From positions 1 through 30,117 of IMG/VR virus record IMGVR_UViG_3300047380_000402: a stretch of DNA of 30,117 nt; one strand, given 5' to 3'. The notes under the pieces were generated by a model, which did no database searches, was not told the origin of the DNA, and saw nothing but the letters and a program-made list of their open reading frames with translations. Shown here piece by piece: positions 1-28,850 of the stretch. Within the stretch, counting starts at the first letter, position 1; every line of letters starts with the position of its first letter. This DNA comes from a virus. Made by a program: the position numbers and the translations under genes.

Positions 1-1385
1 TAACAAGACCTCATTGTTCTAAATGTAGTCTTTTTGTTTTTATACAAACTGTTCCAATTATCAGAACCATCTTCGTCTATAATATCAGAATATACTTCTA
101 CTGTTTCAATATCATATTCTTTAATATATTTTGGATTACTTAATTCACTATCTGGTAAAAACATATAATCATGTCTGAAACTAGACCATGCTTTAAAATT
201 CCATATTACTTCTACCTCATCATAAAAATCTTCAAGTGTACTACCAGGCATAGCTAAAATTAATTCTAATGCTGGTACTGGAAACCCCTCTTCTCTACAT
301 CTTTTTTCAATATGCCTACTTAATTCTAATTTATCTTTACATGATAAGTCTTTTCTTTTAGATACTTTCATAGCTTCTTCACTAATAGATTGTATTGAAA
401 CTGTTGGCACTACCGATACATACTGTGTATCTCCCCACATATCGGTACCTCCCTCGGACTTACTATGTTTTTCTGGTCCTGCACCAACAATTTCAAACCA
501 TTTATCTATCAATCGTTTTCGCCTTTCTAAACTTGGCGACTTCATTGTAGAAATATCTGTTAAATTAAAATTCTTACCCCACGCATAGGCGAATATATCT
601 AAATCTCTTTGTTCAAAGGCACCAAAGTTTGCGTCTGTTAAGTATGCGTCTCTATAACCTGCCTTTTTAATCCAGTCTATATCTCTTTTGACTAACTCAA
701 TATCTTTCTTAATAATCTTTGTATCTGTGCCACCACCCCATTCACAATATACACATTTGTAAGGACAACCTCTGGTCGTTTCTAATATCATAAAGGGTTC
801 CATTTTATTTGCTTTAGCGTAATCTAAAGTTTTTTTGAGGTACTCATGGTGTTCTTCGTAAATAGAAGCGTCTGTATTAATATTATGTTTTGTTGCCTTT
901 AGACTTCTCATCTCCCAACTAATATCTTCTACAACAGGTTTACCATCATTTTCAAACCAACTATTGATTAAATCTTCCATGTATGGTTCGCCAGGTTTTG
1001 TAGGTTGACAAATAAAATCGTATATTCTTTTTCTTTCTTCTAATAATTCATTTTCATAAAGGCCAATGTGGGGTCCGCCAACAACTGTGATTGTTTTGGG
1101 ATTTTGTTGTTTGCAATATTCAGCAAGGCTGTCAATAATAGGAAAATTCCAGCTATAAGAACTAAACATAACAATATCTGGTTTATTTGTTTTACTAATG
1201 TCTTCATATAATTCCTCAATCGTTGTATATTTGTTAAATTTAAATGGCGCTTCTATCCAATTCACGCTTGCCTTATACCTACCAACTAGGTTATAATGGC
1301 TTTGTACCATCAGATAGGTCATATTATTAGCTAATGACCAATCAGCGTGTGGTGGATTAACGAAGGCTATGTTTAATTTTTTCAT
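1..1385 (-). CDS. B12-binding-type radical SAM protein, C-terminus cut by window edge
   Basis: The first 461 codons are present; the last two bases of the window (TA on the coding strand) could begin either a stop or a Tyr codon. Residues about 1-145 look like the Rossmann-type cobalamin-binding domain of class B radical SAM proteins, with the stretches PDIVMFSSYSWN (69-80) and ITVVGGPH (99-106). The radical SAM core follows with CPYKCVYC (C207, C211, C214), which binds the 4Fe-4S cluster that cleaves S-adenosylmethionine. Such enzymes methylate or rearrange unactivated carbons, but the substrate cannot be read from sequence. The ATG at 1385 lies inside the end of the upstream radical SAM gene (29 nt overlap) with no clear Shine-Dalgarno site, suggesting translational coupling. 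It is absent from ordinary long-ORF listings only because it runs off the window. Family assignment is firm; dependence on cobalamin is inferred from the N-terminal domain. Confidence 0.88.
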   Translation of the reverse strand, partial: MKKLNIAFVNPPHADWSLANNMTYLMVQSHYNLVGRYKASVNWIEAPFKFNKYTTIEELYEDISKTNKPDIVMFSSYSWNFPIIDSLAEYCKQQNPKTITVVGGPHIGLYENELLEERKRIYDFICQPTKPGEPYMEDLINSWFENDGKPVVEDISWEMRSLKATKHNINTDASIYEEHHEYLKKTLDYAKANKMEPFMILETTRGCPYKCVYCEWGGGTDTKIIKKDIELVKRDIDWIKKAGYRDAYLTDANFGAFEQRDLDIFAYAWGKNFNLTDISTMKSPSLERRKRLIDKWFEIVGAGPEKHSKSEGGTDMWGDTQYVSVVPTVSIQSISEEAMKVSKRKDLSCKDKLELSRHIEKRCREEGFPVPALELILAMPGSTLEDFYDEVEVIWNFKAWSSFRHDYMFLPDSELSNPKYIKEYDIETVEVYSDIIDEDGSDNWNSLYKNKKTTFRTMRSC

Positions 1386-2388
1386 CACTATATTTGAATG
1401 CCAATCTGAAAGCGCAATCAGGTAAATCGTCTTCTAAATGTTTAAAATCTGATTTGATGAAACAAGACATTGGACATCTTTTGAAATAATCACATTCAAA
1501 ACAATTATATTTGTTTACCCAATTCTCCATTATCTTTGTACCACCCAAATCTTCGGTGTTGTATTCTTTTAATAAAACTGAACCTGAACAACCTGTAGGT
1601 ATCGTACCGTCTGGCATAATTGTTAGACTGTTACCTCTCGTACATGTCATTTTATTTTCTGACTTACCATTTGTAAAATGTTCTATATTTCTACACTTGG
1701 GATACTTGTCAATTAATATTTTATAAAAGGCTAAAACTTCACTCTCTCTTGGCATAATCGCCAAGTCTGATTTTTTACCTGTACTAGGTAATAAATGGTC
1801 CCAATCTACTGGAAATAAACTGTAAAGGTAATCAAAGTATTCATCACCATGTTTTATTGCTTTGATGTTTTGATATGTTTGTACACATGATACCATTCTA
1901 ATTCTGTCTTTAAATCTTTCGACATTTTGTTTGAATAGTGTACTATTATATGAATTGAAACGGCCGTGTGGGTCGTAAGATATAGATATCTTTAAATCGT
2001 TTGCGTCTAAAAATTCTCTGACTAAATGGTGATTTTCAAATACTAGATTACTGACAAAGTTAAAAATAACATTTTTTTCTGGCTTAACTTTATTTCGTAT
2101 TAACTTAATAAACTTGGTGTATATTGGTATATAATTTTGTTGCAACCAATAATCGGAAAACAATTCACCACCCATGATATGAACAGAAAAATCTGTCGAC
2201 CTGGTATTATTATTAATGTAGTGTGATATTGTTTGAGCTTTGTCTAGTATTTCTTTTCTTGAACTACCAACAATACTGTTATGGTCTTGTGGGCAAAAAA
2301 TACAATTTAAATTGCAATGTTCAAAGAGACAGGTTACTATCTCGCAATAATCAACAACCTTGTTGTCAATGACATCATAAAATGACAC
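1357..2388 (-). CDS. Radical SAM/SPASM protein
   Basis: A 343-residue radical SAM enzyme. The cluster motif CNLNCIFC (C25, C29, C32) is near the N-terminus, followed by a glycine-rich SAM-site motif MGGE (72-75). The C-terminal part is a SPASM domain: C249 and C267 flank a MPDGT stretch, then C296-x2-C299-x5-C305-x3-C309 and C325. This is the standard ligand set for two auxiliary 4Fe-4S clusters. SPASM enzymes typically modify peptides or proteins (sactipeptide and ranthipeptide maturases, anaerobic sulfatase-maturing enzymes). The start codon is GTG at 2388, supported by GAGGAA about 7 nt upstream. It lies 13 nt after the 374-residue gene and overlaps the B12-type radical SAM gene downstream. 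Together with the CHxS-tailed gene four positions upstream, this looks like a peptide-modification cassette. The enzyme class is certain, the substrate unknown. Confidence 0.92.
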   Translation of the reverse strand: MSFYDVIDNKVVDYCEIVTCLFEHCNLNCIFCPQDHNSIVGSSRKEILDKAQTISHYINNNTRSTDFSVHIMGGELFSDYWLQQNYIPIYTKFIKLIRNKVKPEKNVIFNFVSNLVFENHHLVREFLDANDLKISISYDPHGRFNSYNSTLFKQNVERFKDRIRMVSCVQTYQNIKAIKHGDEYFDYLYSLFPVDWDHLLPSTGKKSDLAIMPRESEVLAFYKILIDKYPKCRNIEHFTNGKSENKMTCTRGNSLTIMPDGTIPTGCSGSVLLKEYNTEDLGGTKIMENWVNKYNCFECDYFKRCPMSCFIKSDFKHLEDDLPDCAFRLAFKYSDEKIKHSLR

Positions 2389-23606: not shown

Positions 23607-23631
23607 AATATTTATAACAGTTTTCTAACCG
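23607..23631 (-). repeat. Extended late-promoter repeat, copy 2
   Basis: 23 of 25 bases match 16267-16291. It contains the PAAR gene stop codon region (CGGTTAG) and the TATAAATATT of the gp25 promoter. Confidence 0.6.
23609..23616 (-). promoter_or_regulatory. Late promoter box TATAAATA upstream of gp25
   Basis: An exact late box, 8 nt before the gp25 ATG. By T4 geometry, initiation would fall only a few bases before the start codon. Confidence 0.72.
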
Positions 23632-25648: not shown

Positions 25649-25656
25649 TATAAATA
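25649..25656 (+). promoter_or_regulatory. Late promoter box TATAAATA upstream of the DUF6580-like gene
   Basis: An exact late box on the plus strand in the gap before the DUF6580-like gene, 8 nt before its ATG, with no Shine-Dalgarno site between. It implies late expression of the membrane protein and receptor pair. Confidence 0.7.
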
Positions 25657-25664
25657 TAGTCACA

Positions 25665-26063
25665 ATGAATGTGACACCAATTTTTGCAATTGCATTATTA
25701 TTGCCTCAATTTACGACCAATAAATATCTGCAATACTTTATACCTCTTTCGCTAATGTTAGTGAAAGATTTTTTTTATGGTTTTCATGGATTAATGATAC
25801 CTGTTTATTGTTGTGTAAGTTTATTCACAATACTAGGTAGTCATATGAAAAATGAAATCTACGCTACATTTGTAGGTGCAATTATGTGGCATTTAATTAT
25901 TAACTTCTTCGTCTGGTACAAATGGGGTGGAGATTTATTGAACACTTATATAATGGCGATACCATTTGATTTTAATTTATTGGTTTCGACTTTAATATGT
26001 GTCGTTATAGGAAAGATATGTTTAGAATACTACTACCGTTATTTTGTTTATTATTACCGTTAA
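25665..26063 (+). CDS. DUF6580-like multi-pass membrane protein, putative transporter component
   Basis: A 132-residue protein with four to five hydrophobic segments. The start NVTPIFAIALLLPQF, then YFIPLSLMLVKDFFYGFHGL and WHLIINFFVWYKWGG, follow the DUF6580 pattern (TPI-A-ALF, P-L-LL-SD---GFH, NF-VW) of small bacterial membrane proteins annotated as putative transport proteins, resembling ECF-type S components. It sits in the inner membrane by prediction. It overlaps the BtuB-like receptor gene by 46 nt, so the two are co-expressed from the TATAAATA box 8 nt upstream. An outer-membrane receptor plus an inner-membrane protein suggests uptake of one nutrient. Family moderately sure; substrate unknown. 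Confidence 0.65.
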   Translation: MNVTPIFAIALLLPQFTTNKYLQYFIPLSLMLVKDFFYGFHGLMIPVYCCVSLFTILGSHMKNEIYATFVGAIMWHLIINFFVWYKWGGDLLNTYIMAIPFDFNLLVSTLICVVIGKICLEYYYRYFVYYYR

Positions 26064-27724
26064 CTGCAAAAGCAGAATTAGAAATCACAATTTATGCCTT
26101 TAGAACTTCCAATGATTTGGCATTTAAGACTTATTCGTATGATGTAGTCACACCGGATAAAATCAAATCCATACCCTCATTAAATTTAGTACAATCAGGT
26201 CCTGAAGGCCAGATGACTTCTACATTTTTAAGAGGTACAAACTCAAACCATACACTTATTACATTGAATGGTATTGCAATCAAAGACCATTCTACTCCAG
26301 GTGGTACAGATGATATTAGTCAACATAGTTTTTTAGGTGTTGAACGAGTAGAAGTAATCAAAGGACCTATGGGTAGTGTTTATGGTCCTAACTCTATCGG
26401 TGGTACAATCAATATGGTCACTCAACCAAATGAAGAAAATAGTGTGAGTGTATCAACAGGTTCTAATAATACAAATACACAAACAATCAAACTAGGTAAA
26501 TTTTATAACAACACTCTTGTAGATGTAAGAATTGAAAATGAAACAAGTGATGGTATATCTGTTGTAGATGGTAATGAAGATGATAATTACACAAACAGAA
26601 ACTATATTATACAAACTGAAACATATAATGCTATACCTGATTATACTTTAAAAACAAGTTTAATTGAAACTAATAATAAAACAAATTTAGATAAGTCAAC
26701 TGACTATACAAATTATACGGCTGATTGGCAATTCAATAATTATTATATGTCACTACAAAACAAAGATGAAGAATATACAATCAATCACACAAAACATGAT
26801 AGAGTGTATGATGATAAAGGTACAGTTGACACATATAAAAATGATACAACAACTTTACTTGCAAAGAAAACAATACATCAAGATAATAATAGTCATACAT
26901 TAGGAACTGAATACGAATATAATGATATTGAGTTTGATACAAACATTGCTGGTTATGATAGTAATGTTACCAAGAATAGAACAAACAACGGATACTTTTA
27001 TAGTTTAGACCAAACAACTTTAGCAGATGTACAAATGCATTATGGTATTAGATTAGATACACCAAATACATTTGATGACCAATTAACATATAGAATAGGT
27101 GCTGAAAAAAATGGTGTACGATTAAGTTATGCAACTGGTTATAAAGCACCAACTGTTTATGAAATGTATGGTAAAAACAATTATGGGTTTCTAGGTAATA
27201 AAGATTTAATTCCAGAAAAAAGTAAAACATACGAATTAGGTTACCGTTGGGAATCCGGTGATATTGTATTTTTTAAAACAGAAATAGACAATCTTCTAAC
27301 TTACGATAGTAATACATATATTAACGACACCAAAAAAAGTGATAGACATGGTGTTGAATTAGGCTTGACATCTAAAGTCGGTGATGTTAATATACAAAAC
27401 AATACGGCATTCATCATTGCTGAAGACGGAAACGGAACAGAAATAGTACGAAAGCCAAAATGGACGAATACAACAAACTTTAATCTTAATAACTGGAATT
27501 TAGATGTTAATTATTACGGCAGTCATCTCGACATTGATAACACGACTTATGCGAAAATTAAAATGGAGAGTGTGACAACAGCAGATTTATTTTACAAAGT
27601 AGATAAAGGAGGCTTGACAATCTATGGTAAATTGAGTAATATAACAGATGAAGATTACGAAAGACCAGACGGCTATAATCAACTCGGCCGTTCATTTAAT
27701 ATCGGACTAAAAAAGACATTTTAA
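26018..27724 (+). CDS. TonB-dependent outer-membrane receptor, BtuB-like
   Basis: A 568-residue receptor. Signal peptide MFRILLPLFCLLLPLTAKA (1-19), then ELEITIYAFRT, a TonB-box-like start. The plug (about 20-150) has MTSTFLRGTNSNHTLITLNG and VERVEVIKGPMGSVYGPNSI followed by GGTINMV, the hallmark plug motifs and closest to BtuB. The barrel ends YERPDGYNQLGRSFNIGLKK then TF, with the terminal Phe needed for outer-membrane assembly. BtuB imports cobalamin, though related receptors take other ligands. I chose the ATG at 26018 (AGGAAA close upstream, clean signal peptide) over an in-frame ATG at 25997. It overlaps the DUF6580-like gene and appears intact, unlike a decaying fragment. Receptor class certain; cobalamin specificity likely but unproven. 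A full receptor in a phage is unusual. Confidence 0.92.
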   Translation: MFRILLPLFCLLLPLTAKAELEITIYAFRTSNDLAFKTYSYDVVTPDKIKSIPSLNLVQSGPEGQMTSTFLRGTNSNHTLITLNGIAIKDHSTPGGTDDISQHSFLGVERVEVIKGPMGSVYGPNSIGGTINMVTQPNEENSVSVSTGSNNTNTQTIKLGKFYNNTLVDVRIENETSDGISVVDGNEDDNYTNRNYIIQTETYNAIPDYTLKTSLIETNNKTNLDKSTDYTNYTADWQFNNYYMSLQNKDEEYTINHTKHDRVYDDKGTVDTYKNDTTTLLAKKTIHQDNNSHTLGTEYEYNDIEFDTNIAGYDSNVTKNRTNNGYFYSLDQTTLADVQMHYGIRLDTPNTFDDQLTYRIGAEKNGVRLSYATGYKAPTVYEMYGKNNYGFLGNKDLIPEKSKTYELGYRWESGDIVFFKTEIDNLLTYDSNTYINDTKKSDRHGVELGLTSKVGDVNIQNNTAFIIAEDGNGTEIVRKPKWTNTTNFNLNNWNLDVNYYGSHLDIDNTTYAKIKMESVTTADLFYKVDKGGLTIYGKLSNITDEDYERPDGYNQLGRSFNIGLKKTF

Positions 27725-27743: not shown

Positions 27744-27989
27744 ATGTTTCACAAACATGCACTCAAGCAATCACTACAACAAACAGCTGAGTATTTGCTT
27801 GCCGTTTACAACTGGAAAAGAATACCTCTCCAGTACCTACCACACATAGAAGAATATTCAAAGAGAATAAAATACATTAAGATAAAACTGAACAAGGCAG
27901 GAAAAGGATTTGAGTCCTTTAGTGTCTTTACAATATCTGCTCGTAGCTCAGCAGGAAAGAGCAACGGTCTTCTAAACCGTAGGTCGTAG
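27744..27989 (+). CDS. Possible small protein running into the tRNA-Arg gene
   Basis: An 81-codon frame with a strong GAGGAG ribosome site 7 nt before the ATG. The first 58 residues (MFHKHALKQSLQQTAEYLLA, then VYNWKRIPLQYLPHIEEYSK) look like a helical basic protein. The last 17-18 codons lie inside the tRNA-Arg gene and read as tRNA sequence. Either the protein truly uses the tRNA as its 3' end or an ancestral stop was lost when the tRNA was acquired. I do not recognise the protein. Confidence 0.5.
   Translation: MFHKHALKQSLQQTAEYLLAVYNWKRIPLQYLPHIEEYSKRIKYIKIKLNKAGKGFESFSVFTISARSSAGKSNGLLNRRS
27903..27920 (+). other. Small hairpin upstream of the tRNA genes
   Basis: AAAGGA-TTTGAG-TCCTTT, a perfect 6-bp stem, 16 nt before the tRNA-Arg. 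It could mark processing of the tRNA precursor or a weak terminator. Confidence 0.3.
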
Positions 27990-28013
27990 GTTCGAATCCT
28001 ACCGAGCAGGCCA
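27937..28013 (+). tRNA. tRNA-Arg (UCU)
   Basis: Full cloverleaf: acceptor CTGCTCG/CGAGCAG, D stem GCTC/GAGC, anticodon stem ACGGT/ACCGT with loop CTTCTAA (anticodon TCT), T arm GTAGG-TTCGAAT-CCTAC, discriminator G and encoded CCA. It reads AGA, a codon frequent in AT-rich phage genes. Confidence 0.95.
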
Positions 28014-28109: not shown

Positions 28110-28424
28110 TTAAACTTTAACTGAAAATGATGTACCACACCCACATGATGTGGATGCCTGTGGATTATCAAAAGAGAATTGAGAACCAAATATCTCTTCT
28201 TTGTAATCAAGAGTAAGACCTCTGATATACAATTCGTTTATTCTATCAATCAATAAAATCTCATTAACTAATATATCATCTTTTGTTTTCTCATCACCAA
28301 ATGTCCATTCATAACCGAAACCGGCACAACCACCACCTTTAACAGATAGTCGTACATATTTCTTATCATGTTTTTCTGATAATGTATTTAAATGATTTAA
28401 TGCGTTATCTGTTATTGTAATCAT
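28110..28424 (-). CDS. A-type iron-sulfur cluster carrier (IscA/ErpA/SufA family)
   Basis: A 104-residue protein beginning MITITDNALNHLNTL, with VRLSVKGGGCAGFGYEW (C33) and a C-terminal STSCGCGTSF (C94, C96). These are the three invariant Cys of A-type carriers, which receive clusters from a scaffold and hand 4Fe-4S clusters to target enzymes. The length is normal for the family. The start at 28424 overlaps the upstream stop (ATGA), so it is coupled to the 54-residue membrane protein gene; an in-frame extension upstream would lack a ribosome site. Together with Nfu it gives the phage a cluster delivery pair, which may support its radical SAM enzymes. Family certain; client proteins inferred. 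Confidence 0.93.
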   Translation of the reverse strand: MITITDNALNHLNTLSEKHDKKYVRLSVKGGGCAGFGYEWTFGDEKTKDDILVNEILLIDRINELYIRGLTLDYKEEIFGSQFSFDNPQASTSCGCGTSFSVKV

Positions 28425-28585
28425 TTGTACACCGAATAATCTGCGTTTTCGTTCCATCTATCGAACCAGATAGATAATGCTAAGGCACCGAATCCTATTC
28501 CTAACAAAACCCAAAAGAATGGTTCTGTTGTAAGTAAATGCCATAACACTTGTAGGCCGTCCATGTTTTCAAACTCTTTAGGCAT
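28421..28585 (-). CDS. Small single-pass membrane protein between Nfu and the A-type carrier
   Basis: A 54-residue protein with one transmembrane helix, about residues 23-41 (PFFWVLLGIGFGALALSIWF), flanked by an acidic N-terminus (MPKEFENMDGLQ) and a polar C-terminus. The ATG at 28585 lies inside the Nfu 3' end and has AAAGGA about 10 nt upstream; the stop overlaps the carrier ATG. So three genes are translated as one coupled unit. It does not match any Fe-S assembly factor I know. It might tether the carriers to the membrane or be an unrelated small phage membrane protein. Confidence 0.72.
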   Translation of the reverse strand: MPKEFENMDGLQVLWHLLTTEPFFWVLLGIGFGALALSIWFDRWNENADYSVYK

Positions 28586-28850
28586 ATGGGTTATATCCTT
28601 TTTCTCCTGGTTTTGTTTCATCTTCAGCAACTATCTGCTTCACTTCAGGTACATAATGTTTCATCATGTTTTCTACACCTCTATGTAAAGTCATTTGTGA
28701 CATTCTACAACCAGAGCAACTGCCTGCCATTAATAACTTTAATATTCCTTCTTCAAAAGAAACAAACTTAATCTCGCCACCGTGGGCGGCTACATTAGGT
28801 TGTATCTTCTCTGTTAATACCTTTTTGATATTATCTATTGTTTCACTCAT
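28578..28850 (-). CDS. Nfu-type Fe-S scaffold (NifU C-terminal domain)
   Basis: A 90-residue stand-alone NifU C-terminal domain. It has the expected order: helix (MSETIDNIKKVLTEKIQPNV), AAHGGEIKFV strand, then the cluster motif GSCSGCRMSQMTL (C45-x2-C48) and a helix. Two such Cys pairs hold a 4Fe-4S cluster across a dimer, which is delivered to apo-enzymes. The last dozen residues (ETKPGEKGYNPYA) are a phage-like extension. Its ATG overlaps the stop of the 2OG oxygenase gene upstream (4 nt). It forms a coupled unit with the membrane protein and A-type carrier. High confidence in family; the recipient enzymes are not known. Confidence 0.93.
   Translation of the reverse strand: MSETIDNIKKVLTEKIQPNVAAHGGEIKFVSFEEGILKLLMAGSCSGCRMSQMTLHRGVENMMKHYVPEVKQIVAEDETKPGEKGYNPYA

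Follow-up and report, generated by a model that had tools for sequence, protein, structure and literature searches.

A BtuB-like receptor and a DUF6580 membrane protein as a putative late-expressed vitamin B12 import module of marine phages

Described uptake systems and the phage locus

Part of the microbial growth in the ocean is limited by vitamin B12. In bacteria, BtuM is a solitary S-component that transports B12; its prediction came from genomes that lack BtuCDF, in which its gene adjoins btuB (PMC6072759). The regulation of SAR11 btuB by B12 has been stated as an open question (PMC9296465). Two phage-encoded TonB-dependent receptors comparable to the one described here have been reported, namely a SusC-like receptor of Mar_Mega_1, reported as carbohydrate-related (PMC9723777), and an adsorption-related receptor of Skadi (PMC10504331); no B12 partner is reported for either in the excerpted accounts of these phages. 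The main text of a pelagimyophage survey makes no mention of TonB or cobalamin (PMC7029224). A search of the open-licence literature gave no account of phages encoding a module for B12 uptake, which is weak evidence of absence. Phage TonB receptors and phage-carried uptake genes are already known; a B12 module with a function assigned to DUF6580 would appear to be new.

The window, i.e., the whole stretch of DNA that was analyzed, is a 30,117-base IMG/VR virus record (a metagenomic contig). Its gp6 baseplate protein is nearest to those of Mosig (63%), HTVC008M (52%) and the OM43 phage Melnitz (51%), and the virus is, judged from its sequence, pelagimyophage-like and nearest to Mosig and HTVC008M. 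The features of the locus are as follows.

25649 to 25656, plus strand: T4-type late promoter TATAAATA, exact motif, 8 nt ahead of the DUF6580 ATG
25665 to 26063, plus strand: DUF6580 (PF20221) inner-membrane protein, 132 aa (Pfam 60 bits, gathering cut-off 27)
26018 to 27724, plus strand: BtuB-like TonB-dependent receptor, 568 aa (reading frame open from 25997, likely start ATG 26018)
26078 to 26098, plus strand: TonB-box-like LEITIYA, which aligns with DTLVVTA of E. coli BtuB and follows the predicted signal peptide
27937 to 28013, plus strand: tRNA-Arg(TCT), which forms a boundary of the variable slot and also flanks it in Mosig, L017, L021 and L028
28023 to 28105, plus strand: tRNA-Leu(TAA), boundary of the variable slot

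The plus-strand order is TATAAATA, DUF6580, receptor, tRNA-Arg(TCT) and tRNA-Leu(TAA), and the first codons of the receptor overlap the 3' end of the DUF6580 gene. Genes for IscA-like and NifU-like proteins and an Asp/Arg hydroxylase are located 3' of the tRNAs on the opposite strand. The IscA-like and NifU-like iron-sulphur assembly genes (28110-28457 and 28578-28850, minus strand) adjoin the slot of a phage that is rich in radical SAM enzymes.

The slot is positioned between the gp25 and gp5 region genes, beside the baseplate genes. The equivalent slot contains a porin (Porin_4) in HTVC008M and a PstS-like binding protein in Mosig, which are likewise uptake genes but belong to different cargo families; the pair of the window is thus one kind of uptake cargo among several that occupy this variable region. 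The cargoes lie at 14451-15305 of L181 (porin), 13382-14326 of L180 (PstS-like protein) and 25665-27724 of the window (B12 receptor pair).

Late promoter and conservation of the pair

The motif TATAAATA occurs six times in the AT-rich window versus 5.9 times expected by chance. In 14 of 19 related loci, which represent six of eight lineages by our grouping, it lies 13-16 nt ahead of the DUF6580 start, and the upstream DNA of these 14 loci otherwise differs. A fixed position within otherwise different DNA marks the motif as a real element, beyond chance. The DUF6580-receptor pair thus carries the motif at a fixed distance before the gene, as in T4-type late genes, and the late expression claimed for it in the earlier note is also predicted here. 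A scan of phage loci detected no cobalamin riboswitch. Since the 8-nt spacing leaves nearly no leader, a leaderless late mRNA would be expected for the pair. A second late-promoter motif (23609-23616, minus strand) is located 8 nt ahead of the start codon of the gp25 open reading frame, and the spacing at both sites implies that late mRNAs would be leaderless in this phage group.

The receptor gene, the DUF6580 gene or both occur in at least 30 viral contigs. The first phage group is window-like (L002 and L017-L020), with both genes beside the baseplate genes, and also includes L038, which ends after DUF6580. In the second group (L021, L023 and L028), the receptor is found at the same place, and no recognisable DUF6580 was found beside it. 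The third, L003-type group has a TctA gene added downstream of the receptor, and the fourth (L039-L045) has a different neighbourhood. The receptor of L009, L014 and L059 resembles the L003 type, and their downstream radical SAM gene resembles the L040 type. The TctA-family (PF01970) gene of L003 (7788-9074) overlaps the receptor stop codon; its homologues occur in L004-L006, L008, L010, L011, L013, L015 and L016, with no TctB or TctC seen alongside.

Frameshifted copies, which the earlier note had named as counter-evidence if found in most related genomes, were absent from the related loci examined, apart from reading frames cut by contig ends. The dN/dS values are 0.09-0.25 (receptor) and 0.10-0.27 (DUF6580), and purifying selection acts on the pair in several marine phage lineages. 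A contig from a metagenome, such as the window, could be an assembly artefact or contain hitchhiking bacterial DNA, and the closest gene from bacteria (L060) sits in a MAG. However, independent contigs show the same genes with the same baseplate and tRNA neighbours, the genes also occur in other phage backgrounds, dN/dS is low and the promoter is conserved in position. The independent contigs refute this explanation, and its probability is negligible.

No near relative of the receptor was found among isolate phage records. Five weak matches were rejected: three labelled Salmonella (two of which are Salmonella whole-genome contigs) and two Acinetobacter 'phage' records. The 'Flavobacteriaceae' match of L059 was likewise rejected, being a phage contig binned into a MAG.

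The receptor and the DUF6580 protein

The receptor is intact and full-length, as the earlier note had described it, with a signal-peptide-like N-terminus (cleavage site judged by eye), the LEITIYA motif and a C-terminal Phe. The Pfam Plug (54 bits) and barrel (93 bits) domains both score above cut-off and the model superposes on BtuB, so that the protein has the plug and 22-strand barrel of a TonB-dependent receptor. The best NCBIfam match is TIGR01779 (TonB-B12) with 175.5 bits, which is below the equivalog cut-off of 599.7 bits. The best PDB sequence matches are BtuB (1e-30). The AlphaFold model has a mean pLDDT of 78; the leading PDB ranks in Foldseek are all BtuB (TM 0.8), and VIA-align gives Z 38-42 for BtuB crystal structures versus 36 for the next family. 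E. coli BtuB aligns with the model over about 506 residues with Z of about 41, an rmsd of 1.9 Angstrom and 24% identity.

The receptor shares with E. coli BtuB the two-domain fold over its whole length and a TonB-box-like start, and some of the presumed acidic calcium-site positions align. It differs in its late promoter, its score far below the BtuB equivalog level, and its shorter plug and loops. Aligned to E. coli BtuB, the receptor keeps the TonB-box region and has a plug that is shorter by about 12 residues. Under what we take to be the E. coli numbering of the calcium site, D193, D195 and D230 correspond to E, D and D, respectively, whereas D179 corresponds to S and D241 to A with D in the next column.

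The membrane partner named in the earlier note was confirmed as DUF6580 by its Pfam score. The model of the protein has a pLDDT of 88. In structure alignment, ECF S-components fill the ten best places (Z 8.1-10.6), followed by an entry with 5.4; the Foldseek matches by themselves are weak (best E 0.33), and the DUF6580 profile has no match among PDB sequences at E up to 1. Helical folds can reach such Z values by common arrangement, and the match therefore supports an S-component-like fold while falling short of proof. The S-component fold also occurs in MreD and sensor kinases, and helix 1 of S-components carries an AXXXA motif for EcfT docking (PMC11109136). All phage DUF6580 copies begin after helix 1 and have neither this helix nor its docking motif. 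The absence of helix 1 would exclude ECF docking but not solitary transport, and would suit a solitary importer.

The DUF6580 protein resembles BtuM in being a small S-component-like membrane protein whose gene lies beside btuB in genomes without BtuCDF. Unlike BtuM, the phage protein lacks helix 1; it shows no sequence match to BtuM, and no cysteine is common to the bacterial and phage forms.

TonB-dependent receptors are classical phage receptors, and a late-made copy could swamp, replace or decoy the host surface receptor or bind competing phage particles. The late timing fits such superinfection control, and the annotation of the Skadi receptor has been taken as an adsorption clue (PMC10504331). 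Nevertheless, this explanation leaves the inner-membrane DUF6580, the conserved plug and TonB-box region and the link to B12 enzymes unexplained, and an extra receptor should raise adsorption rather than lower it. No support was found for receptor replacement, masking or superinfection control, the second reading of the earlier note, and we consider it highly improbable.

Bacterial relatives and cobalamin-dependent enzymes

Bacterial receptors were found by searching Alphaproteobacteria with the phage alignment. Their hosts have small genomes (1.0-1.3 Mb) and belong to one order. An AdoCbl-II or Cobalamin riboswitch is located directly upstream of eight of the 11 bacterial receptors (L166, L167, L182, L183, L184, L187, L189 and L190), and DUF6580 is the next gene in nine of the 11 loci (L166, L167, L182, L183, L184, L186, L188, L189 and L190). 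In bacteria, the same two families are thus paired under B12 control. A B12-binding radical SAM gene is found nearby, mostly adjacent, in six loci (L182-L186 and L188), as called by Pfam for L182, L184, L185 and L186 and by homology for L183 and L188.

The SAR11-like riboswitch operons (L166, L167, L182-L184, L189 and L190) share with the phage pair the adjacency of both gene families and a related receptor clade. In contrast, the phage pair has the reversed gene order, a late promoter in place of the riboswitch, a DUF6580 without helix 1, and a receptor that is only 24-28% identical to those of the operons.

In the phylogenetic tree, the phage receptors and L060 form one clade (100/100); its sister group consists of nine SAR11-like receptors (100/98). 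Next out are L189/L190 together with the BtuFCD-operon receptors L168/L169, and a branch with 97/91 support unites the receptors of the phages, the SAR11-like bacteria and the BtuFCD operons. E. coli BtuB joins next with weak support, and CirA, FepA, FhuA and PqqU fall outside. The phage receptor therefore groups with corrinoid rather than siderophore receptors. The phylogeny that the earlier note had asked for places it with cobalamin-riboswitch and BtuB-like receptors, without any non-corrinoid placement, and tree and structure agree on the BtuB-like assignment.

Among bacterial genes, only L060 (5974-7734) is closely related to the phage receptor (42% identical); it is located between housekeeping genes in a Rhodobiaceae MAG. 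Its product shares the plug deletion and has no adjacent DUF6580; the genome carries DUF6580 elsewhere (L139). L060 is possibly a donor or a recipient of the phage receptor.

Genomes with the receptor-DUF6580 pair contain weak FecCD matches only, versus full BtuC with about 280 bits in the two BtuFCD genomes; the weak matches in the SAR11-like genomes are unlike BtuC and were rejected as such. No TonB_C domain was detected in the SAR11-like genomes G264, G538, G565, G569, G620, G641, G657, G679, G690, G733 and G823. Their TonB may be divergent, or the genomes may be incomplete. Of five sequences that we take to be SAR11 FISH probes, four have a site with 1-2 mismatches in the 16S of L166/L167, which is suggestive, not proof, that these represent SAR11 or a neighbour.

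A candidate user of imported corrinoid is present in the window itself.

3 to 1388, minus strand: B12-binding-domain radical SAM protein, 3' end cut by the contig end (PF02310 43 bits, PF04055 32 bits)

This protein contains a CPYKCVYC motif and is likely to use the imported corrinoid. L003-type contigs have two B12-binding radical SAM genes each; in contigs of the L040 and L059 types, the immediate neighbour of the receptor gene is a radical SAM gene whose B12-binding match is sub-threshold. PF02310 is absent from the complete genomes of Mosig, HTVC008M and Melnitz, all three without the receptor, and from 21 gp6-related contigs without the receptor. B12-binding domains are found in six of ten receptor-bearing phage contigs versus none of 24 receptor-less relatives (Fisher p 1.6e-4), or in two of four lineages versus 0/24 (p 0.016), counts that come from few lineages, partial contigs and related sequences. 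G847 and G848, which carry the radical SAM gene without a receptor, were counted neither way because, as we read their gene order, these contigs end before the expected place of the receptor.

As the bacterial relatives of the pair are switched by vitamin B12, the phage probably has the infected cell take up B12 for phage enzymes that depend on it. The pair is probably a late-expressed, two-membrane corrinoid import module feeding cobalamin enzymes of phage and host, a reading in which we have fairly good confidence. The BtuB-like receptor would be inserted into the host outer membrane late in infection and energised by a TonB-type system of the host, and scarce corrinoid would enter the periplasm. 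DUF6580, a solitary S-component-like protein, would then pass the corrinoid across the inner membrane in the manner of BtuM. The corrinoid would serve the cobalamin-dependent radical SAM enzymes of the phage and the B12 enzymes of the cell during a long infection. The analysis shows the intact conserved genes, the promoter, the BtuB-type fold and tree position and the S-component-like fold, as well as their context, i.e., the bacterial cobalamin riboswitch with DUF6580 and the co-carriage of B12-binding radical SAM genes. From these we infer the substrate, transport by DUF6580, energisation, and use by and benefit to the phage. Cobalamin uptake, one of two readings in the earlier note, is favoured by the riboswitch-controlled bacterial pairs, the placement with BtuB in tree and structure, and the B12-binding radical SAM protein of the window. 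The B12 enzyme, the riboswitch link and the S-component fold of DUF6580 had escaped the earlier note.

Several observations weaken the import module: the 175-bit score, the shorter plug and the partial alignment of calcium-site acidic residues; the lack of a cobalamin riboswitch at the scanned phage loci and of a recognisable DUF6580 in L021, L023 and L028; the occurrence of the S-component fold in MreD and sensor kinases together with the missing helix 1; and the few lineages and partial contigs behind the co-carriage counts. Energisation is the largest gap, because TonB_C was undetected in the SAR11-like genomes.

The receptor might instead import another scarce ligand, such as a cofactor, siderophore or organic substrate, with its BtuB ancestry being historical only. 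The long branch to the riboswitch-bearing relatives, the plug deletion and the partial calcium site are compatible with such a change of ligand, as are the TctA-family transporter gene directly downstream in L003-type contigs and the porin or PstS-like protein that fills the same slot in neighbouring phages. Against it, three of the four phage groups retain DUF6580, tied to cobalamin riboswitches in bacteria, beside the receptor, the same contig carries a B12-binding radical SAM gene, and BtuB provides the best fold and profile matches. Import of another ligand is therefore rated unlikely.

Beyond the import module of the window, it can be proposed tentatively, with slightly less than an even chance, that marine phages carry a complete B12 import module for both membranes, with a BtuB-like receptor and a reduced S-component-like importer, feeding phage-encoded cobalamin-dependent radical SAM enzymes and, jointly, that DUF6580 is the missing inner-membrane B12 transporter of streamlined marine Alphaproteobacteria without BtuCDF. 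If the import reading is right, the vitamin supply of infected cells is a further target of viral manipulation. For the DUF6580 family, whose function is unknown, this would mean a concrete and readily testable candidate role in carrying B12 across the inner membrane. The same data also suggest that btuB of SAR11-like bacteria carries a cobalamin riboswitch. A riboswitch of another class, the glutamine riboswitch, is known from Melnitz and Mosig; it was also observed in L017 (6912-6960, minus strand), a phage contig of the group to which the window belongs.
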